Shown here: positions 4,088 to 41,900 of the stretch, one piece after another | Position numbering within the stretch: the stretch's first letter is position 1 | Layout: the number at the start of each line of letters is the position of its first letter | Virus record (IMG/VR): IMGVR_UViG_3300033182_001235 | Coordinates: 1 to 43,818 of that record | Length of the DNA stretch: 43,818 nt | Reading direction: 5' to 3' (one strand) | Source of the DNA: a virus | Notes under the pieces: model-generated | The model's input: the letters and a program-made list of their open reading frames with translations, nothing else | Databases searched by the model: none | What the model was told of the DNA's origin: nothing | Program-made: the position numbers and the translations under genes

Positions 4088-4098
4088 ACTATTAGTTA
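4088..4098 (-). promoter_or_regulatory. ATG-abutting box TAACTAATAGT
   Basis: On the minus strand TAACTAATAGT runs directly into the ATG of the gene at 3491-4087. It matches the TAAnTAwTAGT box found in the same position before five other genes here. No purine-rich ribosome site lies between it and the start. Possible promoter core of a leaderless mRNA, or a translation signal. Confidence 0.5.
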
Positions 4099-4122
4099 TT
4101 CTTAGAGAAACTAGTTGCTAAA

Positions 4123-4479
4123 TTATTCGGAACAGCCGGGCATAGTTTGATCACCGCCATCGATCCAAACTAAATTTTCTTCATCCCATCTATGGCAACC
4201 TACATGTGCTGGTGGTTCAACTGGAGGTCTCCATGTGTATGTTGATTTGTCTAGTGTCCAACTTGGAAAAGGTTGTCCAGGAACAAAAACGTCTGCTTCT
4301 GCATCATAAGTAAATCCTACTCCTGCTTCGTGTATTCTGTGTGTTGGTCCTTTTCCGTCTCTAGGAGTTTCGATCCAAAGACTTGGATCTCCTGCTAATC
4401 CAGATTGAATATGTTCTTCATCTGCAACAATCATGTCAACTACATCACCGTCTACTACTTTTGCCCAAAATCTACTCAT
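4123..4479 (-). CDS. Tail-fibre accessory protein, paralogue of 35240-35650
   Basis: A 118-residue protein starting (F)AKVVDG and containing a YDAEADVFVPGQPFPSWTLD segment, then TYTWRPP and a late HRWDEENLVW. The same order (AKVVDG, IYDKTRDAF...PYPSWTLDEDT...W, WRWDENAY) is seen at 35240-35650. Both lie immediately downstream of a Gly-rich tip protein and are the last gene of cassettes A and C, so a role in fibre assembly, capping or as a minor fibre subunit is inferred. Similar proteins are common in marine T4-like phages without a proven function. The start is set by AAGGATAAAAC before the ATG, nearly the same leader as at 35650. Confidence 0.7.
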   Translation of the reverse strand: MSRFWAKVVDGDVVDMIVADEEHIQSGLAGDPSLWIETPRDGKGPTHRIHEAGVGFTYDAEADVFVPGQPFPSWTLDKSTYTWRPPVEPPAHVGCHRWDEENLVWIDGGDQTMPGCSE

Positions 4480-4488
4480 GTTTTATCC

Positions 4489-6105
4489 TTACGTTTGATA
4501 CCTTACAATAACAATACCGTTTCCGCCACGTCCTGACGGTTGGTTTTGGCCTGCGCCGCCACCGCCGCCACCAGTGCCATCTGTTCCATCATCGCCGGGT
4601 CCTTGTGTTCCGTTAGAACCGCCACCTCCGCCAAATCCGCCGCCTCCTTGACCACCTAGTCCAACACCTTGTGAAGCACCGTTATCGCAACAGGCGCCGC
4701 CACCACCGCCTGCAAACCATCCTGCAGGATCACCTAGTGATACACCTTGTTGTGTAAATTGTACATATTGTCTACCAACACCGCCATCTCCCCCGGCTGT
4801 GTTATATCCTCTTTGACCTTGAGCGCCTGCGCCTCCAGCGCCTCCTCCTCCCCAATCTGGAGAAGAAGTTCCGTTAATATTCCCTGCATTACCATATCCT
4901 AATGCGCCGCCTGAATTTCCTTGTAATGCATTACCTGGGTTACCTGGGTTACCTGGCCATGCCGCACCTCCGCCTGAGCCACCGTTGTTTGCGTTGTAGT
5001 TACCTGCTCCGCCGCCGCCGGCGCCACCGCCGATTGCTACAATGGTATCAAACTGTGAATTACCGCCGTTGTTACCTCTTGACGTTGTGCTAACAGCACC
5101 TCCGCCTAATCCAACGTTTACTGTATATGTTCCTGTATTCACCGTGCGTGATGCTTGATAGCATAATCCTCCAGCACCGCCGCCACCATTTGAACAGTTG
5201 TTTGCATATGCCGCTCCGCCGGATCCGCCTCCAGCAACAACAAGAACTTCTGCATCCATTCCGCCACTTTGTGTTGAATTTACTGTAAATGATTGACTAC
5301 TTGTAAACACGTGAGTTTTATATGTACCGCTTGTAGTTATAGTTCCACCTGTTGCAGTGTTTGGTGCTCTAACTGTTATGCTAAATGCTCTATCTACACT
5401 AACACCTGCTTGTGTTGCTCTAACAGTAAAGTTTGAAGTAGTATCAGAACCAACTGCACTAAATCCTGTAATCTGACCGTTTGCACTATTTAAACTTGCG
5501 CCTGCTGGTAAACTTCCACTTACTACAGAATATGTAGGAGATCCGTCAGGATCGGTTGCTGTTACTGTTATCGTATTTCCTCGTTGGCTATCTAATAATG
5601 TTCCCAAACTTCCGGCCGCTGTGCTCCATGTTGTAGCAGAATTAATAGTTCCTGCAGGATCTAACAAGTAAGCAAGTCCTGATGGGTTAGTTACCTTTAC
5701 ACCAAAACTAGCACCACCTACGTAGTTTACTGCACTAGCATTTGTTACAAAAGTTAATTCACTTGCATTAACAAATGTTGTTGCAACAGAACGTGCTACG
5801 TTACCAACACCAGCACCTTCAACTGTAATAGTTGAACCTGCTTTAAAATTACTACCTGTGACAGTAATTGTACTATCTATATTTGTACTAATTGTTCCTG
5901 TGATATTTGTAATAGTCGGAGGAGCATCGATACCTGCCCAGCCTGTAGCATTGTATTGTTCAACAAAACCTAAATCACTATTATATCTTAATGTACCAAC
6001 AGCCGGTGATCCGCCCCTAGTGCCAGTTCCGCCACTAGGTATTTCGATACCTTCTGTGCCAGTAAATTTGGTATTTTTATTTTTAAAATCTCTACTATCT
6101 GCCAT
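4489..6105 (-). CDS. Tail-fibre tip protein with C-terminal glycine-rich domain
   Basis: A 538-residue protein with four parts. Residues 10-60 hold the recurrent module FTGTEGIEIPSGGTGTR...LRYNSD..F.EQYNATGW. About 62-155 looks like an IPT/TIG-type Ig fold (PTITNITGT...). About 165-245 resembles a cadherin-like or putative-Ig repeat (TVTATDPDGSPTYSVVSGSLPAG). From about 285 to the end is a glycine-rich domain that opens EVLVVAGGGSGG and closes GIVIVRYQT. Glycine-rich tips of this kind are used as receptor-binding adhesins in T-even phages (for example S16 gp38). It follows the 1500-residue fibre with only one base between stop and ATG; its AGGAG site lies within the end of that gene. It is a partner of 35661-36923. 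Confidence 0.8.
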   Translation of the reverse strand: MADSRDFKNKNTKFTGTEGIEIPSGGTGTRGGSPAVGTLRYNSDLGFVEQYNATGWAGIDAPPTITNITGTISTNIDSTITVTGSNFKAGSTITVEGAGVGNVARSVATTFVNASELTFVTNASAVNYVGGASFGVKVTNPSGLAYLLDPAGTINSATTWSTAAGSLGTLLDSQRGNTITVTATDPDGSPTYSVVSGSLPAGASLNSANGQITGFSAVGSDTTSNFTVRATQAGVSVDRAFSITVRAPNTATGGTITTSGTYKTHVFTSSQSFTVNSTQSGGMDAEVLVVAGGGSGGAAYANNCSNGGGGAGGLCYQASRTVNTGTYTVNVGLGGGAVSTTSRGNNGGNSQFDTIVAIGGGAGGGGAGNYNANNGGSGGGAAWPGNPGNPGNALQGNSGGALGYGNAGNINGTSSPDWGGGGAGGAGAQGQRGYNTAGGDGGVGRQYVQFTQQGVSLGDPAGWFAGGGGGACCDNGASQGVGLGGQGGGGFGGGGGSNGTQGPGDDGTDGTGGGGGGAGQNQPSGRGGNGIVIVRYQT

Positions 6106-6106: not shown

Positions 6107-9100
6107 TTATATCTCCTGAATTACCCAGCCGTATGTAGCGCCACTGTAAACTAGTAGTAATCCTTCATACTGTGTTGATAATGTTAAGTCGCTTGCCGCA
6201 CCCATTATGTTACTTCCATTTCTTCCTATAGTTAGTGCAAATGTATTAAAGTTTCCTGCTACATCTACAAATCTTACATTGTCCCCAACACTAGGAGTTG
6301 CTGGTAAATCAATACCAAATGCGCCACCTGTTGTGTCAACAAAAATTCTATCATTATTTAGCGCAGTGTATCCAGCAGTAGATTTAGTAATCCACGGATT
6401 ACCGCCACCTAGGCCGCTCCATTGACTATTTGAATATCCTTCAAAGGTTCCTAAATCTGTATTATATCTAATGTAACCATCTGTAGGTGACCCTGGTCTT
6501 TCTGCTGTTGTTCCTTGTGGGATCATTAAGTATTCTTTTCCAATTTGAGCAATAGTAGAACCGTTAATATCAAAATCAATAGTATCAGTTGCTGAACCAG
6601 TACCAGATACTTCAACTTTAGATTTGTTAGGATCAACACCTGCAACGATTGCACCTGCACCTGCAACAGCATTTGAAATTTCAGTGTCAACATATGTTTT
6701 TGTTGCTTTTTCAGTTGGTACTGCTTCATCTGAGTTATCAGCAAACGTACCATCTGTTGAGAATTCGTTAATAGTAGCACCTTGCTTACCAGCAGTAATA
6801 CTACCTAACTGTAATTCGTTTAGACCTGCTAAGTCAAATTCTTCTGAACTTAATGTAGCACGACCAGTTGCTTGTTCGACTTTAAAGTAATCACCAACTC
6901 GGAAGTTACCATCTTGGTCTGTAGTTACGTAGAATACTCTACCGCCATTTTCTGAAAGTGTTTCTCTGTCTTGGTTGGGTTGCTGTGTATAATCAGAACT
7001 AATAATTACTGGATAGTTAGTGTCAGCAAATCCACCAGTACCTACATCAAGGAAGTCATGACCACTCATTCTAACTTGACTAAACGCTTCACGGAATGTT
7101 AAGGTAGTGTTATCGTTTGGTGTTTTATTACTTGGAATTGCTGGATCAATTTGAATTTGACAAGTTCCTGCGGCTTCGTCAAAATTAGTTACACCAATAA
7201 CAAAATATGTTTCACTATCGCCGTCAATTTGTAGTACTGATCCATCTTTAGGTGAACGACTTAAACTGTCTACACTAAACAATACACCTGTTCCAATACC
7301 AGCAAAGCCCGGACGTGTTGCTGTTACAGTTCTTGTTTGACTTGGTGATTGATTTAATGTTAATGCAGTGTCAGAGGTACCTAATGTAACAGACGTTTGC
7401 TCAATTTCGTTTAAGTTTCGCTGTACTACAGTTGTGTTTGTTTCTGTTCCAAGATACTGAGAAAATGCATAACTTCCGCTTGTTACAGTTCCAATACCTC
7501 CAACTTCGTCACGTTGTACATTAACAATAACTGAGTTTCCTTGTTCAATACCTGCACTAATTACGTTAACACCATCAAGCATTACGCCATTTAGTGCAAT
7601 ATTATTTGCTCCGTTATCAAAGCGTCTTGCCCAATTTAATGTACCAGTTGATGTAAATCTTGCAACAAGTCCGGTGTTATTATTGTTGGTAGTTTCGTTA
7701 AGGTAACCCGATGCATAAACGTCATTACCAAACGGTAATACATCTTTAAATTCGCCATTTTCACTACCGTCTGGCATTTGTACTTGCCACTGTACTTGAC
7801 CGTCTACTGTTGTTCTAAATATTAATGGAGTCTTTGTTACTGCACCTGCTGGATCATAGTATCCACCTGCAACTAAGTAAATTCCGTCACCATTGCCTGT
7901 ATCAAGACGTAAACTGTTAATTCGTACGTCGCCATAAATGTATGAAGCAACATAGTTTCCTACACTTGTAATGCGAGTAACTACTGCTTGATTAGCAGTT
8001 GAATCATAACTTGCTACATATAAATTATCTTCTGCTGTTGCGTCACCGGCAAGAGCATATGTGTCTGTTGACGTTGTTGGAGTCCCAGCAAATGTGCAAG
8101 AAGTAGCAACAAGTGTATTCGCCGCGGCACTATCGTTATATTCAAGTGTTCTTGACCACTGTTCAACACCTGCAGGATTTAATTTAATAACTGTAGATCC
8201 TGTTGTTGTATGTGTTCCAACTGCATATAAATTATTACTATCTGTTGTTACATCAACAATTTCAGAAGTGTTACCAATAGTTTTTTGCCACTGTATTTCA
8301 CCTGAACGCGAAATACTTAAAATAAATCCTTTATTTGAACCGTCATATATAACACCACCGCACATAATTCTGTCACTAACTTCAACAGCACTATGAATTG
8401 CACCAAATGCACTTTCATATGTATAAATCCAATCAAGTGATCCTGCTGAATTAAATTTAGCAACAAATGGATGCGAAGCAGTGTTATCCCATGAACTGGA
8501 TATATCTGTGCCAGTTGGGTCTGTGTGTCCTACGAAATATCTATTACCTACAGTGTCGCGATATGAAGTAAACACATGGACGTTTGATCCAAGTGTTTGA
8601 ACACTGTCAATAGTTTTGTCAGTTAATTGTAGTTGTCCAGTTAGTGGAGTTTCGCTTTGTGAAAATCCACGTGCAACAGAGCCGTATTCTCCATATGAGT
8701 TGTTACCTACAATAGCACGAATCTTACCACCACTTTCTGCCAAGTAACCAATGTTACAGTAATATGTAAAACAACTTACAATTTCTGTGCGGCCGTCGTT
8801 TCTTACATGAATACCAATGCCGTCGCTATTAACTTGTGTAAAGTCGTTATTAACAATTGATTTATAACCACCGTTATGTAATCCGCCGTCGACTAACATT
8901 CCAGTACCGCCCGGTGTAAATGATGTACAGTTTTGTACATACGGTGATTGTGAAGTAATCCATACACTCGTGTCATCTGGGCCGGTGCCTGGGTCAAGTG
9001 ATACAAGTACCGATCCTGTACTAAAATTACGGAATACAAAGTTACGAATACGTGACCCGTTATTTACAAGGAACACAGTTGAGTTTGCATTTGGAGTAGA

Positions 9101-10609
9101 TCCGTCACTCGAAATACCAACACCGTATCCGTTATCATTAGTTGTGTCCGGTGAAATATCAACTGCGCCAAGACCGTTACCTTCAAGTACAATACCTCTA
9201 CCTAAACGAATTGGGCATTGTTCTGCATATGTTCCTGAACTTACATTAATACGTGCTTTACTTAAACTAAATGTTTGTTGTGCCGCATGTTGAATTGTTT
9301 TCCAACTTGTAGTTGGTGTGCGACCATCGTTTGTGTCATCACCTTGTGGTGATACATAATAATCGTTTTGAGGTACAAGATGGCCCCATTTAATATCTGT
9401 ACCGTCGCTATACAAAAATGAACCTGCCGGTCCAATTGGTAACCTTGTTGATTGTGTAGCATCACGAGTTAATAAATCTCCTCGTGTCGTAAGTACTGCG
9501 TTACTATCACCTTGTGCAACTAAATTCCAGTTTGGTGCACCAGATGTTGGAGTATTTCCTACGTTATCTGAAGAGGTACTAATATAACTTGACTGTGCAT
9601 ATTCAACTACATCACCAATTTCATACTCAGTAGCGGCATTATAAGTACCTTGCCATGACATCCCATCTGTAAACAATTCCCAATAATTTGAATTAGGTGG
9701 TTCTGGATTAGTTGATCCGTCATTATCATAACTTTCAATACAGATATATGATCTTCCATTTACTCTTACTACATCGCCTACTGTATAAGGATTTGATGCA
9801 GAATATGTTCCGCGCCAACGAGTGCCGTCAGTAAATAGATCAAAATTTGAATTTACATCAGGAGCGTTTTCACCAGTTAGTGATGTACATAGATATACTT
9901 TGCCGCCAAACTTTGTAAGGTCTCCAGGACGATAAATGTTTGTACTATTCCAGTCGCTTCTCCATTTTAAACCATCTAATATTTTTAACCAAACAGTATT
10001 ATCAGACACCAGTGTTCCTAAAGGTGCTTGTCCTTCTTTAACTACATACCGATGGCCACCGTCTTCAACAACATCACCTGGTTTATATTGCGTTCCAGCA
10101 AGCCATTGTCCTTGCCATTCGAAGCCTTTTACATATACGTCCCAATACGCAGTATTAATTGGAGTATTAAGTTGTGTGTTTTGTTTTGCTACATAACTAT
10201 ATCCACCATAGTAAACAATATCACCTTTTTGATAGTTAGTTGCAGGATTAAAGTTACCTTCAAATTGTTGACCATCTACAAACTTTTGCCAATATGCTGG
10301 TTCATCATATGGATTTTGATTAGTTGACTCTTGTAGTGCAATATAAACAGCACCACCATATGTTACTGTTTGCCCTGTTTTGTAAAGTGTTGCTCCACTC
10401 CATGCACCTGCATTTTCAAGACCCGCAACCATTAGGTCCCATTTAGCAACGTCTGGAGCAAAAGTGGCTTGTGATGTGTGTGCTGTTAAACAAGTGTATA
10501 CATTTGGACCGTATTTTACTACATCGTCCTTAACATATGCTGTAGAAGTGGACCAGTCGCCTGTCCAATTAAATTTTACTTTACCCAGTGTAATAGTACT
10601 TGTTGCCAT
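6107..10609 (-). CDS. Giant modular tail fibre A (1500 aa)
   Basis: Residues 12-365 hold seven repeats of about 50 residues with W/Y at the start, Y..GD(V/I)V..G...Y in the middle and Y/NW near the end, similar to carbohydrate-binding modules of the chitinase type. From 417 (YYVSPQGDDTNDGRTP) to about 680 is a right-handed beta-helix of the pectate-lyase-like kind. About 690-1070 has repeated G.(I/L).W....  strands resembling a beta-propeller. About 1130-1340 is the core shared by all three giant fibres (FREAFSQVRMSGHDFLD, GRATLSSEEFDLAGLNELQ). It ends with an RYNTD module and a small beta domain (GDNVRFVDVAGNF...YGWVIQEI). An AGGA site precedes the ATG, and a late-promoter box lies 25 bases upstream. 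It is probably a distal tail structure contacting host glycans. Confidence 0.85.
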   Translation of the reverse strand: MATSTITLGKVKFNWTGDWSTSTAYVKDDVVKYGPNVYTCLTAHTSQATFAPDVAKWDLMVAGLENAGAWSGATLYKTGQTVTYGGAVYIALQESTNQNPYDEPAYWQKFVDGQQFEGNFNPATNYQKGDIVYYGGYSYVAKQNTQLNTPINTAYWDVYVKGFEWQGQWLAGTQYKPGDVVEDGGHRYVVKEGQAPLGTLVSDNTVWLKILDGLKWRSDWNSTNIYRPGDLTKFGGKVYLCTSLTGENAPDVNSNFDLFTDGTRWRGTYSASNPYTVGDVVRVNGRSYICIESYDNDGSTNPEPPNSNYWELFTDGMSWQGTYNAATEYEIGDVVEYAQSSYISTSSDNVGNTPTSGAPNWNLVAQGDSNAVLTTRGDLLTRDATQSTRLPIGPAGSFLYSDGTDIKWGHLVPQNDYYVSPQGDDTNDGRTPTTSWKTIQHAAQQTFSLSKARINVSSGTYAEQCPIRLGRGIVLEGNGLGAVDISPDTTNDNGYGVGISSDGSTPNANSTVFLVNNGSRIRNFVFRNFSTGSVLVSLDPGTGPDDTSVWITSQSPYVQNCTSFTPGGTGMLVDGGLHNGGYKSIVNNDFTQVNSDGIGIHVRNDGRTEIVSCFTYYCNIGYLAESGGKIRAIVGNNSYGEYGSVARGFSQSETPLTGQLQLTDKTIDSVQTLGSNVHVFTSYRDTVGNRYFVGHTDPTGTDISSSWDNTASHPFVAKFNSAGSLDWIYTYESAFGAIHSAVEVSDRIMCGGVIYDGSNKGFILSISRSGEIQWQKTIGNTSEIVDVTTDSNNLYAVGTHTTTGSTVIKLNPAGVEQWSRTLEYNDSAAANTLVATSCTFAGTPTTSTDTYALAGDATAEDNLYVASYDSTANQAVVTRITSVGNYVASYIYGDVRINSLRLDTGNGDGIYLVAGGYYDPAGAVTKTPLIFRTTVDGQVQWQVQMPDGSENGEFKDVLPFGNDVYASGYLNETTNNNNTGLVARFTSTGTLNWARRFDNGANNIALNGVMLDGVNVISAGIEQGNSVIVNVQRDEVGGIGTVTSGSYAFSQYLGTETNTTVVQRNLNEIEQTSVTLGTSDTALTLNQSPSQTRTVTATRPGFAGIGTGVLFSVDSLSRSPKDGSVLQIDGDSETYFVIGVTNFDEAAGTCQIQIDPAIPSNKTPNDNTTLTFREAFSQVRMSGHDFLDVGTGGFADTNYPVIISSDYTQQPNQDRETLSENGGRVFYVTTDQDGNFRVGDYFKVEQATGRATLSSEEFDLAGLNELQLGSITAGKQGATINEFSTDGTFADNSDEAVPTEKATKTYVDTEISNAVAGAGAIVAGVDPNKSKVEVSGTGSATDTIDFDINGSTIAQIGKEYLMIPQGTTAERPGSPTDGYIRYNTDLGTFEGYSNSQWSGLGGGNPWITKSTAGYTALNNDRIFVDTTGGAFGIDLPATPSVGDNVRFVDVAGNFNTFALTIGRNGSNIMGAASDLTLSTQYEGLLLVYSGATYGWVIQEI
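9515..10576 (-). repeat. Seven tandem carbohydrate-binding-like modules in fibre A
   Basis: Seven degenerate repeats of about 50 codons (residues 12-365), each with an aromatic start (for example FNWTGDW, FEGNF, FEWQGQW, WRGTY, WQGTY), Y..GD(V/I)V and a second aromatic pair. Fibre C has six and fibre B seven, so module number varies between paralogues. Confidence 0.75.
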
Positions 10610-10634
10610 TTAATTAAATCCTATAATCTTTGTA

Positions 10635-10644
10635 GTATTTATTC
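10635..10644 (-). promoter_or_regulatory. T4-type late promoter GAATAAATAC for fibre A
   Basis: The minus strand reads GAATAAATAC, one base off the T4 late consensus TATAAATA. It overlaps the stop codon of the small gene 10639-10875 and lies 25 bases before the ATG at 10609. Fibre A can therefore be transcribed separately from its upstream partner. Confidence 0.6.
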
Positions 10645-10893: not shown

Positions 10894-10903
10894 GTATTTA
10901 GTT
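10894..10903 (-). promoter_or_regulatory. T4-type late promoter AACTAAATAC
   Basis: The minus strand reads AACTAAATAC, 18 bases before the start of 10639-10875. It overlaps the stop codon of the upstream oxygenase gene. The CTAAATAC core is repeated at 31524-31533. Confidence 0.6.
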
Positions 10904-11504
10904 AAGATTTACAATTTGATAGATCAACAAAATTGTAGTCTAAACGAGTACCTAACTGTGTAGGAAGCAGATTAAAACTAATTGTTATACGCTCTTTATC
11001 GCATGGTTGGCTGTCGTGTATTAGATAACTTGGAAAAAATACTAAACGTCCTTTGATGGCATCAACCGTAAATATTTCAGTAATAAACGGCGTTGTGTTT
11101 TCATTTTTTGTTTGTATTAGTGTAGGTGTTTTGTCGTGTTTAAAAAATCTCGTAGGACTACTATCTGTAAAATAAACAACACCACTAAGAAGACTGTTGC
11201 TATGAAAGTGTGCCTTAATTGATCCACCTTCCTTGCCTTCTACTGGTGTGTATCTATTTGCCCACATCTGTGTAATCCACAGTTTTTCGTCTCTCCACCC
11301 AATCTGTTTTGAAAATTCTTCCGCTTTTTTAACTATGGTATCGCAGAATTCTTGCATTACTGCTTTTTGATGAAGTTCTGCTTCGCTTTGTTCAATTCCA
11401 GTAGACTGTTGTTCCCAGACTATATGTGAAATGTCTGGGAGATCAATAGTCGATTCTGCAATAGGTGTTGGGAATATTCCATGGACTGTCAAATCGTTTG
11501 TCAT
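10902..11504 (-). CDS. Putative 2OG-Fe(II) oxygenase (TIGR02466 type)
   Basis: A 200-residue protein with HGIFPTPIAESTIDLPDI at the N-terminus, ITQMWANRY, KAHFHSNSLLSGVVYF (metal-site region), GRLVFFPSYLIHDSQ (distal His) and RITISFNLLPTQLG (2OG-binding Arg). It is the nearest paralogue of 249-815, and the two share whole blocks, so one probably arose by duplication. It is transcribed alone, divergently from 11535-12263 across 30 bases. The start is fused to a perfect TAATTAATAGT box with no Shine-Dalgarno. Its stop overlaps the late promoter of cassette A. Confidence 0.87.
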   Translation of the reverse strand: MTNDLTVHGIFPTPIAESTIDLPDISHIVWEQQSTGIEQSEAELHQKAVMQEFCDTIVKKAEEFSKQIGWRDEKLWITQMWANRYTPVEGKEGGSIKAHFHSNSLLSGVVYFTDSSPTRFFKHDKTPTLIQTKNENTTPFITEIFTVDAIKGRLVFFPSYLIHDSQPCDKERITISFNLLPTQLGTRLDYNFVDLSNCKS

Positions 11505-11515
11505 ACTATTAATTA
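11505..11515 (-). promoter_or_regulatory. ATG-abutting box TAATTAATAGT
   Basis: A perfect copy of the TAATTAATAGT box on the minus strand, ending at the base before the ATG of 10902-11504. It occupies about a third of the 30-base divergent gap and has no ribosome site beside it. Confidence 0.55.
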
Positions 11516-11534
11516 TTGAATAAGTATTTTACAC

Positions 11535-12263
11535 ATGAACAAATTGACTATTAAATTTTCAAAACCCTCAGTTCCTATCAACACACTAACGCCTGGTCAA
11601 CAGGTAGTAGAAACATTTGATCAATGGGACGACATACCAAAACCATATCCTGCTACAAAAAATGTACCAGATTGGTTTAAACATGCATCGCAATGGGGAG
11701 GAAAAATTAACACTATACCAACTGTTAAAAAATGTCCTCCATTTCTTGATGCGTTAACTGCTGGATACATTATACCGTACAGCGGAAGTGTTACTTTAAC
11801 TAAGACTGAAAAAGGACATATAACAAAGTCTTCTACAAAGGGTAGTATTTTTATGAGCAGTCACGTTAAAGGACAATACGAGTCAACACCATGGAAAGAC
11901 CTATCAGTACTTAAATTTTCAAGTCCGTGGATTATTTCAACACCACCTGGTTGGAGTTGTTTGTTTATTCATCCTTTAAATGATTCTAATACAAAATTTA
12001 AAACCTTAAGTGGGATTGTCGATACCGACACATATAGAGTGCCAGTTAACTTTCCGTTCTTGCTCGATATTGAGCCAGGAGAATCAATCGAGTTTACTCA
12101 AGAAACTGCTATGGTACAAGTTATTCCATTTAAAAGACAAGCATGGAACATGGAAATTGGTGATGCTAATATGGTTGAATGGGATACTCATCAAGAACTT
12201 CTTGGCAAGCCTGGAAATGATGCATATAAAAACACATTTCATCAAAAAAAGAAATTTACTTAA
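11535..12263 (+). CDS. Phage protein of unknown function, paralogue of 2643-3365
   Basis: A 242-residue protein. It shares with 2643-3365 the blocks VPDWFK (PEWWK there), CPPFLDALTAGYIIP, FSSPWIIS, a G(I/V)VD turn followed by a conserved Asn, and VQVIPF. I do not recognise the family. It is predicted to be mostly beta, soluble and without membrane segments. It is transcribed divergently from an oxygenase gene and overlaps by 8 bases the end of the convergent J-domain gene. No Shine-Dalgarno is evident before the ATG. Repeated co-occurrence with 2OG oxygenases suggests participation in the same process. Confidence 0.62.
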   Translation: MNKLTIKFSKPSVPINTLTPGQQVVETFDQWDDIPKPYPATKNVPDWFKHASQWGGKINTIPTVKKCPPFLDALTAGYIIPYSGSVTLTKTEKGHITKSSTKGSIFMSSHVKGQYESTPWKDLSVLKFSSPWIISTPPGWSCLFIHPLNDSNTKFKTLSGIVDTDTYRVPVNFPFLLDIEPGESIEFTQETAMVQVIPFKRQAWNMEIGDANMVEWDTHQELLGKPGNDAYKNTFHQKKKFT

Positions 12264-12555
12264 CTCGTTGTATGCTTACACTGCCCATTGCTTGAGAAAT
12301 ATTAAATTCAAGTTCTTGATCTTTTTCAACAGTGACTTCAGATACGTCAACTCTAACAACATTTGCATAGATATCGTACCGATTTCTTTTTTGCGTGTCT
12401 GACAATATGTTGTATGCTTCTTTAATTTTATTAAATTTATCTTTATTACCGGTAGGACGATCAGGGTGATACTTCATTGATTGTTTTCTAAATGCTTCTT
12501 TTATTTCAGAGGAAGTAGCACTCGGTGTAATTCCTAATAGAGCATAATAATTCAT
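12256..12555 (-). CDS. J-domain (DnaJ-like) protein
   Basis: A 99-residue protein. Residues 1-60 form a complete J-domain: YYALLGI at the start, the diagnostic HPD at 30-32 and KIKEAYNILSD...R..YD at the end. The J-domain stimulates Hsp70 (DnaK) ATPase. The remaining 40 residues (VVRVDVSEVTVEK...) match no Gly/Phe or zinc region, so this is a short type III J-protein that would recruit host DnaK to a particular client. Its ATG overlaps the stop of 12555-12893 (TAATG), placing it last in an operon behind the halogenase. The client may therefore be the halogenase or another member of that operon (inference). Confidence 0.9.
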   Translation of the reverse strand: MNYYALLGITPSATSSEIKEAFRKQSMKYHPDRPTGNKDKFNKIKEAYNILSDTQKRNRYDIYANVVRVDVSEVTVEKDQELEFNISQAMGSVSIQRVK

Positions 12556-12893
12556 TATCGTCTTGGATCGTAGAGTAGGTCTATTTCACTAATACTAATT
12601 TTTCCATCAACAAACGTGCTATCTTCGCCATATTTTATAGGACGCACAGCAATCTTTCCACCTCTAATGTTAGGCATAATTTCTACAGTGTTTGGTGGAA
12701 TAATAATATCATAGTTTTCTGCCGTAAGCACTTCATTAAGGTCATCTTCAGATCGTGTAAACACTATATGAAAACCTAATTGACTTGTTGCTACTCTTAC
12801 TTGTTCGGTAAAAAACGGCCCCATGACAAAACTATCATCTTGGTTAACATCGGTAACTTCGTAAACGTGTGTTGTATAGAATTTCTTGATCAT
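12555..12893 (-). CDS. Unknown 112-residue protein between halogenase and J-domain genes
   Basis: The family is not recognised. The sequence is mixed alpha/beta with charged segments (SEDDLNEVL, YDIIIPPNTVEIMP, ISISEIDLLYDPRR), no Cys, no signal peptide and no membrane segment. It lies 8 bases after the halogenase stop and overlaps the J-domain start by TAATG coupling. The ATG is preceded by TTATAAATAGTATT, which contains a perfect T4 late-promoter core (see 12894-12908), so it may also be made from its own late mRNA. Confidence 0.6.
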   Translation of the reverse strand: MIKKFYTTHVYEVTDVNQDDSFVMGPFFTEQVRVATSQLGFHIVFTRSEDDLNEVLTAENYDIIIPPNTVEIMPNIRGGKIAVRPIKYGEDSTFVDGKISISEIDLLYDPRR

Positions 12894-12908
12894 AATACTA
12901 TTTATAAC
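12894..12908 (-). promoter_or_regulatory. Perfect T4 late-promoter core TATAAATA abutting a start codon
   Basis: The minus strand reads GTTATAAATAGTATT directly before ATG at 12893. With the usual T4 spacing of about six bases from the box to +1, transcription would begin at the A of the ATG, giving a leaderless mRNA. It overlaps the halogenase stop codon. Confidence 0.55.
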
Positions 12909-18624: not shown

Positions 18625-18625
18625 T

Positions 18626-32766: not shown

Positions 32767-32794
32767 AACTGTAATTACCTTTTTAAAAACGTCA

Positions 32795-32805: not shown

Positions 32806-34002
32806 ATGAGCAAACAACGTATAGGAATAATTGGAATTGGCACTGCTGGCATAATGAGTATATCACACTGCCTTGCACATCTTGATAATACTTGGGAAGT
32901 TTATTCAATTTATGATCCAAAAAAACCAATACTAGGAATAGGCGAAAGTACGTCAACACAAATTCCTGAAAACCTTTTTAACAGTATAGGTTTTAATCTA
33001 AACGAAGAAGAACATAGCAATTTAGTAGATGCAACACTAAAATTAGGCGTAAAATTTACAAACTGGCGAGAGCATGATTTTTATAGCCATATGATGGTTC
33101 CTCGATACGGTATACATTTTAATAATTTCAAACTTAAAGAATATACTTTTGAAAAATTTAAAACAATTTACAAAGATAGATTTAATGAAATTCACGGAAC
33201 CGTGCAAAGTACTGAAAGTAAAGATTATGGCGTGGAAGTTTTAATAGATGATAAAGTGCATGTATTTGATTTTATAGTAGACTGCGGTGGCTGGCCTACT
33301 GATTATGAAGATTATAATTATTCTCAACATATTCCTGTAAACACTTGCTTAGTTAATATGATTCCAAAACCCGGAGAATGGAAATATACACATCATGTAG
33401 CAACACCTGATGGTTGGATGTTTGGTATTCCTCTACAAACTAGACAAGGCTGGGGATATCTATATAATAGCGACATAACATCAAAGCAAGATGCAATAAA
33501 AAATATGTCTACATTTTTTGCAGACAACGACTTTAACGGGGATAATCTAAAAGAGTTTAATTTTAAAAGTTATAGAGCAAAAAAATATATAGAAGGAAGA
33601 ATTGTTAAAAATGGAAACCGTGCATTGTTTTATGAACCTATTGAAGCATTAAGTGGCTATTTCTATGATCAAGTATTACGCTATTTCTTTGATTACTTGC
33701 AATTGAAATACACGGAAGAAAACGTAAACAAAGAATTAGATATACTAGCAAATAATATAGAACTAGGTATTTGTTATTTGTATCACGGCGGTAGTACTTA
33801 CGACACAAATTTTTGGACACATGCAAAAAATATTACTAACAACAAACTTAGCAATGACAACTATTGGCAAGAGACTGTAAAACAAATTTCTAGTTTAAAA
33901 GATTCGCACAATGGAGGATTTGGTTATATGGGCGTAGGTGCTTTTACTATGAAAAGTTGGTTAGATTTTGAAAAGAATTTAGGATATAATACCTTTAATT
34001 AA
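32806..34002 (+). CDS. Halogenase-like flavoprotein, short form
   Basis: A 398-residue member of the tryptophan halogenase fold, about 100 residues shorter than the gene at 12902-14398. It has GIGTAG (FAD site, 10-15), GIGEST (44-49), TLKLGVKFTNW with a Lys at 79 in the position of the catalytic Lys, and NRALFYEPIEALSGYF, equivalent to the EPLEAT block. The WxWxIP signature is altered to WMFGIP (within GWMFGIPLQTRQGWGYLY). This could be a halogenase with changed substrate pocket, or a related flavin monooxygenase. The gene ends 8 bases inside the convergent P4H-like gene. Confidence 0.8.
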   Translation: MSKQRIGIIGIGTAGIMSISHCLAHLDNTWEVYSIYDPKKPILGIGESTSTQIPENLFNSIGFNLNEEEHSNLVDATLKLGVKFTNWREHDFYSHMMVPRYGIHFNNFKLKEYTFEKFKTIYKDRFNEIHGTVQSTESKDYGVEVLIDDKVHVFDFIVDCGGWPTDYEDYNYSQHIPVNTCLVNMIPKPGEWKYTHHVATPDGWMFGIPLQTRQGWGYLYNSDITSKQDAIKNMSTFFADNDFNGDNLKEFNFKSYRAKKYIEGRIVKNGNRALFYEPIEALSGYFYDQVLRYFFDYLQLKYTEENVNKELDILANNIELGICYLYHGGSTYDTNFWTHAKNITNNKLSNDNYWQETVKQISSLKDSHNGGFGYMGVGAFTMKSWLDFEKNLGYNTFN

Positions 34003-34594
34003 TATACACTGCCCAAGTATTCATAACGTATTTTTCACCGGTTAAGGGCGGATTTCCGCGGTGTGTGTGCGTGAAACTGCCAGGACACATCATAATACTA
34101 CCCTGTTTAGGTTTTACACGTAATCCTTGATATAAGAATTCTGTTTCACCGCCTTCTTCTACATCATTCAAATATAACATAACCAATAATAACCTGTGGC
34201 CATGATTAACACTATCTTGTTCCCAATGCCAAACATGATATCCTTGTCCTGGTACTGTTTTTTGAATCTTTACATACCCGTCTAAAGTGTGTGTAGTTGT
34301 TTGTGTTAAATCATATTTGGTAATATATTGATTATAACAATTCCAAAATGCTTCTTTAAATGTTTGGAAAATAATTTTATCATTTGCAGAAGTTATAGTG
34401 TTTTCTGGCAATAGGTCAGGTGTACCTGTTAAATCATACATGTCAGTATCTTTGGTTAGTTTTGCAACACCTTCTTTTGATTGTCTATCTATAGATAGTC
34501 CTGCACTTTTAACTTCTTCAAAGTGTTTAATAATTTTTTCACACGTGTGACTGTCTACAGCATTTTCATAAACTTCAATAAAATTGTATTCCAT
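33995..34594 (-). CDS. Prolyl 4-hydroxylase-like 2OG-Fe(II) oxygenase
   Basis: A 199-residue protein: GYHVWHWEQDS (HxE metal site), HRLLLVMLYLNDVEEGGETEFLYQ, KPKQGSIMMCPGSFTHTHRGNPP (distal His in THTHRG) and KYVMNTW (2OG-binding Lys). Very similar to 2047-2646, so these two are probably duplicates placed in separate islands. It follows 34597-35196 with a two-base gap and is likely co-transcribed with it. TTATAAAA precedes the ATG. Confidence 0.87.
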   Translation of the reverse strand: MEYNFIEVYENAVDSHTCEKIIKHFEEVKSAGLSIDRQSKEGVAKLTKDTDMYDLTGTPDLLPENTITSANDKIIFQTFKEAFWNCYNQYITKYDLTQTTTHTLDGYVKIQKTVPGQGYHVWHWEQDSVNHGHRLLLVMLYLNDVEEGGETEFLYQGLRVKPKQGSIMMCPGSFTHTHRGNPPLTGEKYVMNTWAVYIN

Positions 34595-34596
34595 TT

Positions 34597-35196
34597 TTAT
34601 AACCTAAAATTATAGTTAATTACCATACGAAAATCATTTTCAAAAGGATGTGATCCTGCATGTAAAGTAAGTCCGTTAAAGATTACTATTCTACCTTGTT
34701 TAGGAGAAATTCTTGCAATTTCTTCCTTGCCTTCAAACAAAAAAGTATCTCCATCACTGTCATTTACATAATATACACCTGCGTAGTGTGGAACTTCATT
34801 GTCAATGTGCGGTGTATTATAACTACCGTTAATTTTGTTTCTATGTTGTGTTTGAAAATTTGCTTTGCACCTCAATATTTCTCCACTATCTAAATCTAGT
34901 TTGTGAAGAATTGCTCTAAACAAATCTTCTACTAATGGTGCAGTATCTGAATTACGTATTGTATTTCCACCGTCATTATCAAAAAATACATGAATAAATG
35001 CAAGATATTCTTGTATATTGTTGTAGTCTTTTTTGGCCAGTTCAAATTCATGATTTTTTACTGTGAGTAAAGTTCTACTTAGATACCACGGAAAATAAGG
35101 ATTCATTAAATCACTTTTAATTTTATTTGAAAAAGATTCAGGAATAAAGTCATCTAAAATTAAATGACTCTTACCTTGCAATATATCATTAGTCAT
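34597..35196 (-). CDS. 2OG-Fe(II) oxygenase (HxD type)
   Basis: A 199-residue protein with canonical motifs: NTPHIDNEVPHYAGVYYVND (HxD), GDTFLFEG, KQGRIVIFNGLTLHAGSHP (distal His) and FRMVINYNFRL (Arg for 2-oxoglutarate). It differs from the P4H-like HxE group and resembles phage PKHD-type oxygenases. First gene of a two-gene minus-strand unit. The ATG is fused to TAAGTAATAGT with no Shine-Dalgarno. Confidence 0.87.
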   Translation of the reverse strand: MTNDILQGKSHLILDDFIPESFSNKIKSDLMNPYFPWYLSRTLLTVKNHEFELAKKDYNNIQEYLAFIHVFFDNDGGNTIRNSDTAPLVEDLFRAILHKLDLDSGEILRCKANFQTQHRNKINGSYNTPHIDNEVPHYAGVYYVNDSDGDTFLFEGKEEIARISPKQGRIVIFNGLTLHAGSHPFENDFRMVINYNFRL

Positions 35197-35207
35197 ACTA
35201 TTACTTA
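35197..35207 (-). promoter_or_regulatory. ATG-abutting box TAAGTAATAGT
   Basis: TAAGTAATAGT on the minus strand, ending at the base before the ATG of 34597-35196. The remaining 32 bases to the upstream stop codon show no other signal. Confidence 0.5.
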
Positions 35208-35239
35208 TGAACTAATTTTTTTGGTGTTTATGTTTGTGA

Positions 35240-36924: not shown

Positions 36925-39900
36925 TTACACCTCTAATAATAACCATCCGTCTGTTGCTCCACTGTAAACTAATTGGAATGCACTGCCGTCGACGTCTGAA
37001 GTTATGTTTTCTGCTAGTCCCATTATTAAGTTTCCGTTTCTATTAATGTTTAGATTGTTTGTAGAAAAGTTTCTTTTCATATCCATAAATCTAACGTTAT
37101 CTCCTACAGCCGGGCTATTTGGTAGATTAATAGTGACCTGGCCGCCGCTAGTATTTACAAAAATTCTATCGTTGTTTGCCGCTGTAAATCCATTATCTGC
37201 AAAACCTTTTTCAATCCATGGATTACCACCGCCAATTCCACTCCATTGAGTACCATTATAACCTTCAAAAGTTTCTGTATCTGTATTGTATCTTAAATAT
37301 CCTGAAGCGGGTGATCCTGGTCTACTTGCAGTATCTCCTTTTGGTACTAACATGTAATCTGATGTTGCTTCAAAACTTAAAGAACCACCAGGCTTCATTT
37401 GTAATGCAGTACTGCTAATTTGTGTAACTTCTGTTCCTTGAATTTCAACATTAATACTAGAAGTATTCGCTATAACTTTTGTTTGTGTAGGACTATTACC
37501 TGCAACAATAGCACTAGCACCTGCAACAGCATTTGAAATTTCTAAGTCAACATAAGTTTTAACTGCTTTTTCAGTAGGTACTGCTTGGTCTGAGTTGTCA
37601 GCAAACGTACCGTCTGTACTAAATTCGTTAATAGTAGCACCTTGTTTACCTGCTGTGATTGAACCAAGTTGTAGTTCATTAAGACCTGCAAGGTCAAATT
37701 CTTCTGATGAAAGAGTTGCTCTACCAGTTGCTTGTTCAATTTTAAAGTAATCACCAACTCTAAAGTTACCTGATTGGTCAGTGGTTACGTAGAATACTCG
37801 TCCACCATTTTCTGAAAGTGTTTCTCTGTCCTGGTTTGGTGCTTGTGTGTAATCACTTGCAATAATAACCGGATAGTTTGTGTCGGCAAATCCACCTGTA
37901 CCAATGTCTAGGAAGTCATGTCCACTCATTCGTACCTGTGAAAATGCTTCACGGAAAGTAACTGCTGTACCATCTCCAGGTGTTTTGTTTGAAGGTATTG
38001 CTGGATTAATCTGAATACTTGCTGTTCCTGCACCTTCGTCGAAACTATTAACACTAATAACAAAATAAGTTTCACTATCACCTGCAATTTGTAAAACACA
38101 ACCATTTTTTGGACTTCTTGACAAATTATCAATACTGAAAAGTACACCTGTACCAATACCGCCAAAGCCTGCTCTAGTTGCTACAATAGATCTTGTAATA
38201 CTAGGAGACTGATTAAGTGTTAATGTAGTATCTGTTGTTCCAAGTGTTACTGCTGTTTGATCAATAGCATTAATTGTTTTTGTAACAACTGTATTCGCTG
38301 TTTCAGTTTGTGAAGTAATTGTAAATGCATAAGAACCACTTGTTACTGTTCCTATTCCTGCATCAGCATCTCTTTGTACATTAAGAATAACACTGTTACC
38401 TTGTTCAATACCTGCGGCAATTACGTTTACACCGTCAAGCATTACTCCATTAAATGCTATATTGTTAGTTCCATTATCAAATTTATATGCCCAATCTAAT
38501 GTACCGTTTGAAGAATATCTTGCTAATAAACCTGTGTTGTTATTGTTTGTACCTTCGTTTTGATATCCTGCAACATATATGTCGTTACCAAAAGGCAAAA
38601 CATCTCTCCAAGCACCGGCTTCAGAACCTAGTGCAAACTGTTTTTGCCATTGTACTACACCGTCAACATTAATTCTAAACAATAAAGGATTAGTAGTTCC
38701 ACTGTTATCATATGAACCACCAGCAAGTAAGTAAATTCCGTCACCGTTTCCTGTGTCTAATCTTAGACTGTTAACCGCTACGTCACCGTATGTATATGTG
38801 TTTACAAAAACACCTGCATCTGTAATTCTTGTGATTGTTGACTCGTTTACTGTAGAGTCGTATGCCGCAATATACAAATTGTTTTCTGCTGTCGCATCTC
38901 CAGCAAGTGCATATGTATCAGTTGACGTAGTTGGTGCACCTGCAAAAGCACATGCTGTCGGAACAATAGTATTTGTAGCAGTACTATCGTTATAATTAAA
39001 TGTTCTTGACCACTGTTCAACTCCAGCAACATTAAATTTAGTTGCATTCATACCGGATGTAGTGTGAACACCAACAGCATAAACAAAATCTCCATCTGTT
39101 GCTAAATCAACAATTTCACTAGTGTTACCTACAGTTTTCTGCCATTGAATTTCGCCTGCTTTTGAAACACAAATTACAAACCCTTTGTTTGTTGCGCCAT
39201 CCCTAAATACGCCGCCTGCAAAATATCTCTGTCCTGCTTCTATTACAGAATGTATTGCACCAAAAGATCCTTCGTATGTGTATTGCCAATCTAATGATCC
39301 AGCACTGTTATATTTTATAATATATGGATAACTTGCTGTAGGATCAAATGTTGAAGTTATATCTGTACCTGTAGGAGCAGTATGTCCAACAAAAACTCTG
39401 TTACCTACTGTATCTCTAAAACTTGTAAACACATGAACATTTGACGCTAGAGTTTCGACCGAATTAAGCGTTTCGTCATTAAGTTCTAATGTTCCTGTTA
39501 AAGGTGTTTCTGCTTGTGAAAATCCTCTTGCAACAGCGCCATATTCGCCATATGAGTTGTTACCAACAATAGCACGAATTTTACCGCCACTTTCTGCTAG
39601 ATATCCAATATTACAATAGTATGTGAAACAAGATACAATCTCAGTACGTCCATCATTTAGTACGTGAACACCAATACCGTCTGAATTGATCTGTGTAAAG
39701 TCGTTGTTAACAATAGACTTATAACCACCGTTGTGCAATGCACCGTCTACTTTCATGCCTGTACCACCCGGAGTAAAGTTAGTACAGTTTTGTACATATG
39801 GCGACTGTGAAGTAATCCACACACTTGTATCGTCTGGTCCGGTGCCTGGGTCAAGTGATACAGTAACACTTCCTGTTGAGAAGTTACGGAACACAAAGTT

Positions 39901-41298
39901 ACGTAATCTTGCACCATTGTTCATTAAGAACACGTACGAGTTTGCATTTGGTGTAGATCCATCATCTGATATACCAACACCAAACCCATTGTCGTTTGTG
40001 GTATCTGGCGATAATGTAACAGCGCCTAATCCATTACCTTCGAGTACAACACTACGTCCCACTTTAATCGGACATTGTTCTGTGTATGTTCCTGAACTTA
40101 CATTAATTCTACATTGTCCTAAACTAAATGTTTGTTCACATGCATGTTTGATTGTTTTCCAACTAGTAGTCGGAGTTCTACCATCATTTGAGTCATTACC
40201 TTGTGGAGATACAAAGTAATCGTTTTGCGGAGTTAGATGACCCCATTTTAAATCTGTGCCGTCGCTTGTTAAAAACGAGCCGCTTGGTCCAATTGGTAAA
40301 CGTACTGCCTGAGTAGCATCTCTAGTTAATAAATCACCTCGTGTTGTCATTACAGCGTTTGAATCACCCTGTGATAATAATGCCCAGTTAGGTGCTCCGT
40401 CTGATGGTGTATTATTAAGGTTAGCATCTGCTATTGAAACATAACTAGATTGTGCGTATTCAACAACATCACCTTGTTGGTATGTGTAACTATTATTCCA
40501 TGCACCAATATATTTTAATCCGTCATTTAATAATTCCCAATAAGTTGCATTGTATGGGAAATAATTTGCACTGTTATGTCCAAGAATACAAATATAACTT
40601 CTTGCACTGTATCTTACTACATCACCAATTTTATAATTTGTAGAATTGTTCCACTCTCCTGCCCATTTTTGTCCAGGAACAAGAAGTGTATAATAAGTTG
40701 GATTTGTTGGTAAAGGCCCCGTTGCAGATTGAGTGTTTATATATAACTGGCCGCCGTATTTTACAACATCACCAGGATTGTAAGTATTTCCTACGTCCCA
40801 ATCATTTTGGTATCGAAACCCTTTTGTATGAATATCCCAATTTATGCCATCGTCGGGTGCATTTCCAGTTGTGTTATTTTTTGCAATATAAGTATATCCG
40901 CCAAACTGTACTATATCACCTTTTTGATACTCAGCACCGGCGTTATATAATCCTTCAAATTGTTGACCATCTACAAATTTTAACCAATCGCTTGTTTCTG
41001 TTTCTGGATTTGCATTTGTATTTTCTTGTAATGCAACATAAACTGCACCACCATAAACTACTGTTTGACCTTTTTTGTATAGAGTTGAGTTATTCCATGT
41101 TCCGGCCGCTTCTAAGCCTTCCGCCATAACCTCAAATTTAGCGGCATTTGTTGCAAAATCGCTTGCACTTGTATGTGCATCAATACAAACAAAAACACTT
41201 GGGCCATATTTTACTATGTCATCTTTGTTATAAGCGGTGGACTGAGCCCATTCACCTTTCCAAGTAAATTTAAGATTTCCTAGGTTAATTACTGTCAT
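36925..41298 (-). CDS. Giant modular tail fibre C (1457 aa)
   Basis: The same design as fibre A. There are six carbohydrate-binding-like modules (11-309), a linker (TTRGDLLTRDATQAVRLPIG) and a beta-helix (YFVSPQGNDSNDGRTP onward). A propeller-like section (GSLDWQYTYEGSFG, GEIQWQKTVGN) leads to the shared core (FREAFSQVRMSGHDFLD, GRATLSSEEFDLAGLNELQ). Next come a short helix (TYVDLEISNAVAGASAIVAG), an RYNTD module and a C-terminal GDNVRFMDMKRNF beta domain. It is one module shorter than A at the N-terminus. The ATG overlaps the preceding small gene's stop. Part of the beta-helix is nearly identical at DNA level to fibre B. Probable distal tail fibre. Confidence 0.85.
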   Translation of the reverse strand: MTVINLGNLKFTWKGEWAQSTAYNKDDIVKYGPSVFVCIDAHTSASDFATNAAKFEVMAEGLEAAGTWNNSTLYKKGQTVVYGGAVYVALQENTNANPETETSDWLKFVDGQQFEGLYNAGAEYQKGDIVQFGGYTYIAKNNTTGNAPDDGINWDIHTKGFRYQNDWDVGNTYNPGDVVKYGGQLYINTQSATGPLPTNPTYYTLLVPGQKWAGEWNNSTNYKIGDVVRYSARSYICILGHNSANYFPYNATYWELLNDGLKYIGAWNNSYTYQQGDVVEYAQSSYVSIADANLNNTPSDGAPNWALLSQGDSNAVMTTRGDLLTRDATQAVRLPIGPSGSFLTSDGTDLKWGHLTPQNDYFVSPQGNDSNDGRTPTTSWKTIKHACEQTFSLGQCRINVSSGTYTEQCPIKVGRSVVLEGNGLGAVTLSPDTTNDNGFGVGISDDGSTPNANSYVFLMNNGARLRNFVFRNFSTGSVTVSLDPGTGPDDTSVWITSQSPYVQNCTNFTPGGTGMKVDGALHNGGYKSIVNNDFTQINSDGIGVHVLNDGRTEIVSCFTYYCNIGYLAESGGKIRAIVGNNSYGEYGAVARGFSQAETPLTGTLELNDETLNSVETLASNVHVFTSFRDTVGNRVFVGHTAPTGTDITSTFDPTASYPYIIKYNSAGSLDWQYTYEGSFGAIHSVIEAGQRYFAGGVFRDGATNKGFVICVSKAGEIQWQKTVGNTSEIVDLATDGDFVYAVGVHTTSGMNATKFNVAGVEQWSRTFNYNDSTATNTIVPTACAFAGAPTTSTDTYALAGDATAENNLYIAAYDSTVNESTITRITDAGVFVNTYTYGDVAVNSLRLDTGNGDGIYLLAGGSYDNSGTTNPLLFRINVDGVVQWQKQFALGSEAGAWRDVLPFGNDIYVAGYQNEGTNNNNTGLLARYSSNGTLDWAYKFDNGTNNIAFNGVMLDGVNVIAAGIEQGNSVILNVQRDADAGIGTVTSGSYAFTITSQTETANTVVTKTINAIDQTAVTLGTTDTTLTLNQSPSITRSIVATRAGFGGIGTGVLFSIDNLSRSPKNGCVLQIAGDSETYFVISVNSFDEGAGTASIQINPAIPSNKTPGDGTAVTFREAFSQVRMSGHDFLDIGTGGFADTNYPVIIASDYTQAPNQDRETLSENGGRVFYVTTDQSGNFRVGDYFKIEQATGRATLSSEEFDLAGLNELQLGSITAGKQGATINEFSTDGTFADNSDQAVPTEKAVKTYVDLEISNAVAGASAIVAGNSPTQTKVIANTSSINVEIQGTEVTQISSTALQMKPGGSLSFEATSDYMLVPKGDTASRPGSPASGYLRYNTDTETFEGYNGTQWSGIGGGNPWIEKGFADNGFTAANNDRIFVNTSGGQVTINLPNSPAVGDNVRFMDMKRNFSTNNLNINRNGNLIMGLAENITSDVDGSAFQLVYSGATDGWLLLEV
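39881..39981 (-). repeat. Tract nearly identical to fibre B (24574-24674)
   Basis: Counterpart of the tract in fibre B, with three differences in 101 bases by eye. Around it fibre C is closer to fibre A at protein level (for example WITSQSPYVQNCT and SIVNNDFTQ), so C is mosaic here. Confidence 0.7.
40372..41268 (-). repeat. Six carbohydrate-binding-like modules in fibre C
   Basis: The modules start at FTWKGEW, AAGTW, FEGLY, YQNDW, WAGEW and YIGAW, with Y..GD(V/I)V strands between. Compared with fibre A one module is missing. Confidence 0.72.
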
Positions 41299-41555
41299 TG
41301 TGGGTTCTCTCTATACGTATATATTAGTTGTCCATTGGTATTTATCGAATATATTCCATCATCGTCACCAATGTATTTTTCAGTAAACAAATCATTATGG
41401 TTACCATCTTTTAATTTTACTTCTCCCAAAGTTACTCTTGTGTAAACTAAATCACCGTTAGCGTTTTTTGTAAAACCATGGAAACAACTGCGTCCTTCAC
41501 CTCTTCCTGCAGGACCACCCTGTGGATTACCTATAAATTTTGGAAGTGTTGCCAT
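41295..41555 (-). CDS. Small fibre-cassette protein, paralogue of 10639-10875 and 26625-26999
   Basis: An 86-residue protein with GRGEGRSCFHGFTKNANGDLVYTRV near the N-terminus and GIYSINTNGQLIYTYRE at the C-terminus, the pattern of the other two small cassette proteins. Directly upstream of giant fibre C with a short ATGA-type overlap, so translation is coupled. Function unknown. TTGGAG precedes the ATG. Confidence 0.72.
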   Translation of the reverse strand: MATLPKFIGNPQGGPAGRGEGRSCFHGFTKNANGDLVYTRVTLGEVKLKDGNHNDLFTEKYIGDDDGIYSINTNGQLIYTYRENPQ

Positions 41556-41556
41556 T

Positions 41557-41889
41557 TTATGATATCTCCAATACGCTTACTGTAACATCTGCACTATTAT
41601 TTGTGTCAGATCTTACACATAATTCTTGATTAGGTAATAAAACTAACTTTTGTTCTCCACCTACTGGAACCAATGCACTTCCTGCATTTATAGTAGTTCC
41701 TTTTAGTAAGTAAATTTCGGAAGAATCTGTATCTCTAATAAACAAGTCTACTACAATAGCAGAAGTTGTTCTATTAGCAACAGTATAACCAATAACTGTT
41801 GTGTAAAGTAGTCCGTTTCCAGGCGTATAAACAGTTACATCTGCTGTTCCTACGCTTGCTGTTAAATTGTTTCCGAATGAATTTGCCAT
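41557..41889 (-). CDS. Small beta-rich structural protein, unknown function
   Basis: A 110-residue protein composed of short beta strands (ADVTVYTPGNGLLYTTVIGYTVANR, AIVVDLFIRD, KLVLLPNQELCVRSD, ADVTVSVLEI). Small proteins of this make-up occur in many phage structural regions, but no family is asserted. It lies between the large structural protein and the small cassette protein, all on the minus strand. The start is fused to the TAATTAATAGT box, here preceded by AGGA 11 bases from the ATG. Confidence 0.62.
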   Translation of the reverse strand: MANSFGNNLTASVGTADVTVYTPGNGLLYTTVIGYTVANRTTSAIVVDLFIRDTDSSEIYLLKGTTINAGSALVPVGGEQKLVLLPNQELCVRSDTNNSADVTVSVLEIS

Positions 41890-41900
41890 ACTATTAATTA
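41890..41900 (-). promoter_or_regulatory. ATG-abutting box TAATTAATAGT
   Basis: A perfect TAATTAATAGT copy on the minus strand, ending at the base before the ATG of 41557-41889 and overlapping the stop codon of 41898-43818. The only example in front of a structural gene. Confidence 0.55.

Follow-up and report, generated by a model that had tools for sequence, protein, structure and literature searches.

The window, that is, the whole stretch of viral DNA analysed here (43,818 nt), contains at least 11 2OG-Fe(II) oxygenase genes in 44 kb (in the regions 249-2646, 3491-4087, 10902-11504, 14395-15643, 31582-32766, and 33995-35196), which are interspersed with tail-fibre-like genes, and two tryptophan-halogenase-like genes (12902-14398 on the minus strand and 32806-34002 on the plus strand). 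Genes for a subtilase (peptidase S8; 27037-28590, minus strand) and a J-domain protein (12256-12555, minus strand) are also found, in each case in a phage structural region. In the initial annotation, an 11-base box was described as being joined directly to the start codon of six genes. These six boxes are indeed present before the starts at 4087(-), 11504(-), 31582(+), 32806(+), 35196(-), and 41889(-), each with the ATG of a long frame directly 3' of it, and three of them (11504-, 32806+, and 41889-) are identical (TAATTAATAGT) as had been noted. At 12893(-), the related sequence TTATAAATAGTATT contains TATAAATA, a perfect T4 late core and the sole TATAAATA of the window, again in agreement with the earlier description. 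A motif search of the whole window, which had been proposed as a check, returned seven exact boxes, six of which are fused to an ATG; the seventh (6998-7008, minus strand) lies within a coding gene and away from any start. When the 34 upstream regions of the window were subjected to 2000 dinucleotide shuffles, no shuffle produced more than one box-to-ATG fusion (one was seen in 5 of the 2000), as against six observed. The placement of the boxes before ATG thus greatly exceeds what chance would give.

A better definition of the element is the 8-bp core nATAAnTA, which occupies -13 to -6 relative to the ATG and is followed by five bases. By counting every ATAAnTA in the window according to its spacing (k) from an ATG that opens at least 80 codons, nine were found at k = 5 and no more than two at any other k between 0 and 45. 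The nine core-fused starts are 1412(-), 1446(+), 4087(-), 11504(-), 12893(-), 31582(+), 32806(+), 35196(-), and 41889(-), so that 1412, 1446, and 12893, together with a near match at 32766(-), are additional to the boxed genes listed earlier. Lowering the frame cut-off to 45 codons brought in a tenth site at 26764(-), whose 47-codon frame lies within another gene and which is taken as a chance match. ATAAnTA at -12 to -6 was observed nine times but at most twice in any of 2000 dinucleotide shuffles of the same 34 upstream regions. With ATAA at -12 to -9 as the sole criterion, TA was likewise found at -7/-6 of all nine matching starts, so that these have the complete late core although this part of it was unselected. 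The T4 late box spans -13 to -6 in T4 numbering (PMC2988020), and the core of the window stands in the same register, which would place +1 on the A of the ATG. No -35 element was apparent upstream of -14, where column information is low and the match to TTGACA is near the shuffled level. The base at -8 is unconstrained in the window clade, and some sites are one base off NATAAATA, the cyanophage late promoter (S-PM2, Syn9; PMC2984593).

The start-fused sites are distributed along the window as follows. Two 2OG-Fe(II) oxygenase genes, 816-1412 and 1446-2054, diverge from a 33-bp gap between their ATGs, the former being preceded by TATAACTA (-13 to -6) and CATAT (1412-1425, minus strand) and the latter by GATAATTA and TCTAT (1433-1448, plus strand). 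ATAGT follows the core before two further oxygenase genes on the minus strand, 3491-4087 (core AATAACTA, 4085-4100, with the 11-base box at 4088-4098) and 10902-11504 (core AATAATTA, 11502-11517). The divergent partner of the latter, a DUF6065-like gene (11535-12263), has the core AATAAGTA at 8 nt from its ATG (11519-11537, plus strand), and a 3-nt leader is predicted for it. The perfect T4 core at 12891-12906 (minus strand) is followed by GTATT and the ATG of a conserved gene (12555-12893). Around 32 kb, the oxygenase gene 31582-32175 has GATAATTA and TTAGT (31569-31584, plus strand), the oxygenase gene 32164-32766 has the near match GGTAATTA (one mismatch, at -12) and CAGTT (32764-32779, minus strand), and the tryptophan-halogenase-like gene 32806-34002, which is divergent from the near-match site, has CATAATTA and ATAGT (32793-32808, plus strand). 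ATAGT is also found after CATAAGTA (35194-35209, minus strand) before a 2OG-Fe(II) oxygenase-like gene (34597-35196) and after GATAATTA (41887-41902, minus strand) before a gene for a 110-aa protein (41557-41889). The Pfam/PHROG label "endonuclease V" for the 35196 gene was not adopted, as it looks like a mislabelled 2OG oxygenase family, and the name of the fold family is used instead. Seven of the nine core-fused genes encode 2OG oxygenases or a halogenase; many other oxygenase genes of the window lie inside operons and have no promoter-start unit. We also observed that the three divergent pairs (1412-1446, 11504-11535, and 32766-32806) measure 30-39 bp from ATG to ATG and place two late-type cores back to back, an arrangement in which polymerases may exclude one another.

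Ordinary late promoters are present in the same window, 17-40 nt 5' of structural genes and mostly accompanied by a Shine-Dalgarno (SD) sequence. All of the following are on the minus strand: AATAAATA at 26 nt (10609-10643) from a tail-fibre-like gene (6107-10609) and again at 17/21 nt with SD AAGGA (26600-26629; gene 19434-26600), GATAAGTA at 27 nt with SD AGGAG (18624-18659; gene 17896-18624), CATAAATA at 28 nt with SD TGGAG (26999-27035; gene 26625-26999), and GATAAATA at 40 nt (41298-41346; gene 36925-41298). Conventional late promoters of the form CTAAATAC were further noted at 10875 and 31502. The base at -8 is A in one of nine leaderless sites of the window versus six of seven leadered ones (Fisher p = 0.009), a value that is based on hand-entered counts, is one of several features compared, and should be read with care. 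Given this difference, the variant seen in the box could belong to a promoter class of its own, and the T variant at -8 may represent a separate temporal class.

Pairing with the anti-SD sequence differs between the two kinds of start, its mean energy being -0.7 kcal/mol at the nine fused starts and -5.0 kcal/mol at the remaining starts of the window. The earlier statement that four of the six boxed genes have no ribosome site is a fair one (-0.4, 2.6, 0.7, and 0.1 kcal/mol). Some SD pairing is seen at 31582 and 41889 (-4.6 and -4.0 kcal/mol), where AGGA overlaps the promoter core, and partly at 1446.

A megablast search of the phage collection, with a portion of the window as query, found no match, and relatives were therefore drawn from IMG/VR contigs, 15 of which carry the 571-aa neighbour gene and show the same arrangement. 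No relatives of the 4087 gene were found by the search. Orthologues of the 12893 gene have TATAAATA or CATAAATA with the 5 nt kept, and those of the 11504 gene have GATAATTA or TATAACTA in the same register, also at 5 nt. Orthologues of the DUF6065-like partner retain an nATAAGTA-type core (ATAACTA in L252) with its 8 nt, and in one relative (L283) both members of this divergent pair stand at 5 nt. Core and spacing are thus kept among orthologues while -13 and -8 vary, with all four bases found at -8 of orthologous sites, and the flanks of the units are syntenic. In relatives, cores of this type are also located before several structural genes: the A variant at -8 before those for the tail sheath, the tail tube, and the head-tail adaptor, and the T variant before a T4 gp26-type baseplate-hub gene (L009, L073, and L092). 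Among the matches listed for the exact box in database contigs, more than 25 unrelated families were counted; most of the genes are accessory ones (Nudix, Fe-S carrier, GroES-like, and deformylase among them), and the T4 gp26-type baseplate gene is also included. The initial annotation had proposed that the box is suited to genes that move singly. This is not generally borne out, since the unit is found in relatives at structural genes, those for the tail sheath, tail tube, and baseplate included, and is thus not confined to singly moving genes; a mobile-cassette signal was rejected for the same reason. A virion structural family related to proteins of the jumbo phages RaK2, PA5oct, and Atu_ph07 was additionally seen with the core at 8 nt or 5 nt, depending on the relative (L247:20034(-), L254:17102(-), and L007:6862(-)).

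As a sequence pattern, the fused core extends beyond the window to cultured pelagimyophages and related contigs. In HTVC008M, a cultured Pelagibacter phage, 9 of 45 ATAAATA sites lie at exactly 5 nt from an ATG, where 0.35 per bin would be expected, and the stretches read of Mosig (a Pelagibacter phage) and Melnitz (a methylophage) contain five and three such sites, respectively. The HTVC008M sites are 5' of annotated starts, including those for the tail tube cap, a gp25-type baseplate wedge protein, the baseplate wedge initiator, a DNA end protector, and the tape measure, and the nine units fall in gaps of 8-75 bp (median 17, hand-entered from annotation tables). An independent set of 80 contigs, collected by tail sheath similarity, added 32 further 5-nt sites. 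In the pooled 1.06 Mb of pelagimyophage-type DNA (HTVC008M, Mosig, Melnitz, and the 80 related contigs), ATAAATA was found 49 times at 5 nt, 11 times in total at 6-13 nt, and as a broad class from 14 nt on. No enrichment of ATAA[CGT]TA at 5 nt was detected in this set. Many pelagimyophage contigs have, close to the tail sheath gene and on the other strand, a gene of 98-102 aa that nearly always carries TATAAATA exactly 5 nt before its ATG (L315, L344, L383-L396, and L314:29194-29493). The late sigma factor gp55 is annotated in HTVC008M, Mosig, and Melnitz, as is gp45; Melnitz further has an annotated late-transcription coactivator, and HTVC008M a putative late promoter factor. The absence of gp55 from the window, a fragment, and from the 15 related contigs, which are likewise fragments, is uninformative. 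Ribosomal protein S21 is encoded by HTVC008M (L310, 91228) and Mosig (L312, 9932), and also by Melnitz according to the Melnitz paper; any link between S21 and leaderless translation would be speculation.

In the pelagimyophage set, the median anti-SD energy was +0.6 at the 5-nt sites versus -5.6 at other starts (p = 2e-15), and an SD core was found at 6% versus 60% of them. The base at -1 is a pyrimidine at 48 of the 49 5-nt sites compared with 45% of other starts, and all 49 start codons are ATG with no GTG or TTG, whereas the 15-35 nt class has 128 ATG and 13 GTG/TTG. Leadered-class sites have a shared GTA 3' of the core, and a purine stands at the same +1 distance in 81% of these. The pyrimidine at -1 and the purine at +1 of the leadered class look like sequence signs of an initiator, suggesting a start on the A of the ATG, and the empty interval at 6-13 nt together with the -1 pyrimidine would fit a transcription start. 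Frames were found by ATG scanning and some of the counted ATGs may be internal, which would add background but create no peak at a single spacing. Among the matches listed for the box in the collection, the fused ATG opens at least 60 codons in 79 of 119 cases, and an ATG shifted by one base does so in 15 of 114. Twenty permuted heptamers gave a mean of 2.0 and a best of 14 sites at 5 nt, against 49 for ATAAATA, and ATAAATA was unenriched at 5 nt in 120 unrelated AT-rich viral contigs (4 of 628). Chance or AT-richness is ruled out by the shuffles, the permuted heptamers, and the unrelated contigs. Outside the pelagimyophages, no 5-nt ATAAATA sites were found in the stretches read of T4, S-CAM4, and Syn9, and one each in those of P-SSM2, P-SSM4, and P-HM1. 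The 41-kb stretches of the jumbo phages Atu_ph07 and Phosso, which have a structural protein in common with relatives, contained none, and three sites in the KVP40 stretch are uninformative since that stretch holds mostly non-late genes.

The best reading of these data, to which we assign a probability of roughly 0.8, is that the sites are gp55-type late promoters that would produce leaderless mRNAs. The box would then be the 3' portion of a late promoter of the T4 type, with the core nATAAnTA (TATAAATA in T4) at -13 to -6; the host core RNA polymerase with a gp55-type sigma factor would melt this core and begin the transcript at the A of the ATG, and the 5'-terminal AUG of the resulting leaderless mRNA would be read without Shine-Dalgarno pairing. 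The ordinary late promoters with an SD leader, 17-40 nt upstream of their genes, would be a second mode in the same phage. From the features above we infer gp55 recognition, the exact +1, late timing, and leaderless translation. The suggestion in the initial annotation of a late-promoter variant with +1 at the start codon gains from the register of the core, the locked spacing, the weak SD pairing, the pyrimidine at -1, the exclusive use of ATG, and the recurrence in cultured pelagimyophages with annotated gp55; the conserved element is not the 11-base box itself, as the TAGT half is absent at 1412, 1446, and 12893 and variable in relatives.

It is possible, though unlikely, that the sites form a clade-specific promoter class with another timing (for example, middle) or another phage sigma factor or regulator, marked by T, C, or G at -8 and still with +1 on the ATG. 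The non-A base at -8 in eight of nine leaderless versus one of seven leadered window sites would agree with such a class, as would the mostly accessory nature of the exact-box genes among the matches listed (Nudix, Fe-S carrier, GroES-like, and deformylase). However, the T variant occurs at the T4 gp26-type baseplate-hub gene in L009, L073, and L092, position -8 of orthologous sites switches among all four bases, and the two -8 variants differ neither in their spacing nor elsewhere in the core. It is very unlikely that the sites are simply -10 boxes (TAnnnT) for the host sigma70 at leaderless genes, with no late promoter involved. GATAAT, CATAAT, and AATAAT in several boxes do resemble TATAAT, and leaderless genes of bacteria have TANNNT about 12 bp 5' of the start (PMC3160421), but the final T of TATAAT is replaced by C, G, or A at four of nine window sites. 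The corresponding base is A in 49 of 49 pelagimyophage sites (as set by the search pattern, with ATAA[CGT]TA unenriched at 5 nt), the TA at -7/-6 is invariant although unselected, and there is no -35 signal.

That the box might act as a translation-initiation or AT-rich mRNA enhancer, or as a recombination or cassette boundary, and not as a promoter at all, seems highly improbable, even though it abuts the ATG and precedes many unrelated genes. Other late genes have the same core at free distances with an SD leader, and the core is palindrome-poor, directional, and linked to a divergent partner or to whichever gene comes first after a gap. Moreover, the flanks are syntenic in relatives, and a transcription start agrees with both the empty 6-13 nt interval and the -1 pyrimidine.

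The T4 late promoter (TATAAATA, recognized with gp55/gp33/gp45; PMC2988020, PMC7892883) shares with these sites the 8-bp AT core at -13 to -6, the missing -35 element, and an AT-rich stretch downstream. Unlike in T4, the core is locked to the ATG here, with a base at -8 that is free to vary in the window clade, whereas the T4 stretch read has no ATAAATA 5 nt from an ATG, its sites being mostly about 20-35 nt upstream. The cyanophage late promoter resembles that of the window in its free first base and same core, but 50-kb stretches sampled from five cyanophages contained 0 or 1 start-fused sites each versus nine in HTVC008M. Leaderless genes of bacteria (TA-led, PMC3160421; Lactococcus, PMC10986495) likewise lack an SD and carry their -10 element about 12 bp 5' of the start codon; the phage sites differ in having a late-type core in place of TAnnnT and in serving virion structural and accessory genes. 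Measured leader lengths in Lactococcus are bimodal, those of zero being set apart from the longer ones by an empty interval (PMC10986495), which the pooled phage spacings resemble in their two modes and empty interval. The T4 genes e, soc, 49, and I-TevI also have a late promoter very near the start, giving a short late message distinct from the read-through RNA (PMC3014915); however, those messages retain a ribosome-binding site with control by an RNA hairpin, and there would be no leader here. Searches of open-access full texts found no account of leaderless late messages in phages of the T4 type, which is weak evidence of absence as the subscription literature lies mostly outside the search, and the only matches in the Melnitz and Mosig papers were the title of a cited reference.

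We consider the chances about even for a more general proposal, namely that in a widespread marine group of T4-type phages, those of SAR11 among them, the late promoter has become a 13-bp promoter-plus-start unit and leaderless mRNAs are the sole source of the products of a defined group of late genes, both virion and accessory, with SD-less read-through RNA being poorly translated and each gene being switched by its own late start. If true, a branch of one of the best-studied phage transcription systems, found in abundant ocean phages, would fuse promoter and start codon and drop the ribosome-binding site, major tail genes included. Such a unit fits genome streamlining, the HTVC008M units lying in short gaps. 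For thousands of marine phage genomes, it would allow one to predict exactly and cheaply where transcription begins and which codon is the start, and to correct gene starts, and it would raise the question of how SAR11 ribosomes turn to leaderless messages late in infection.
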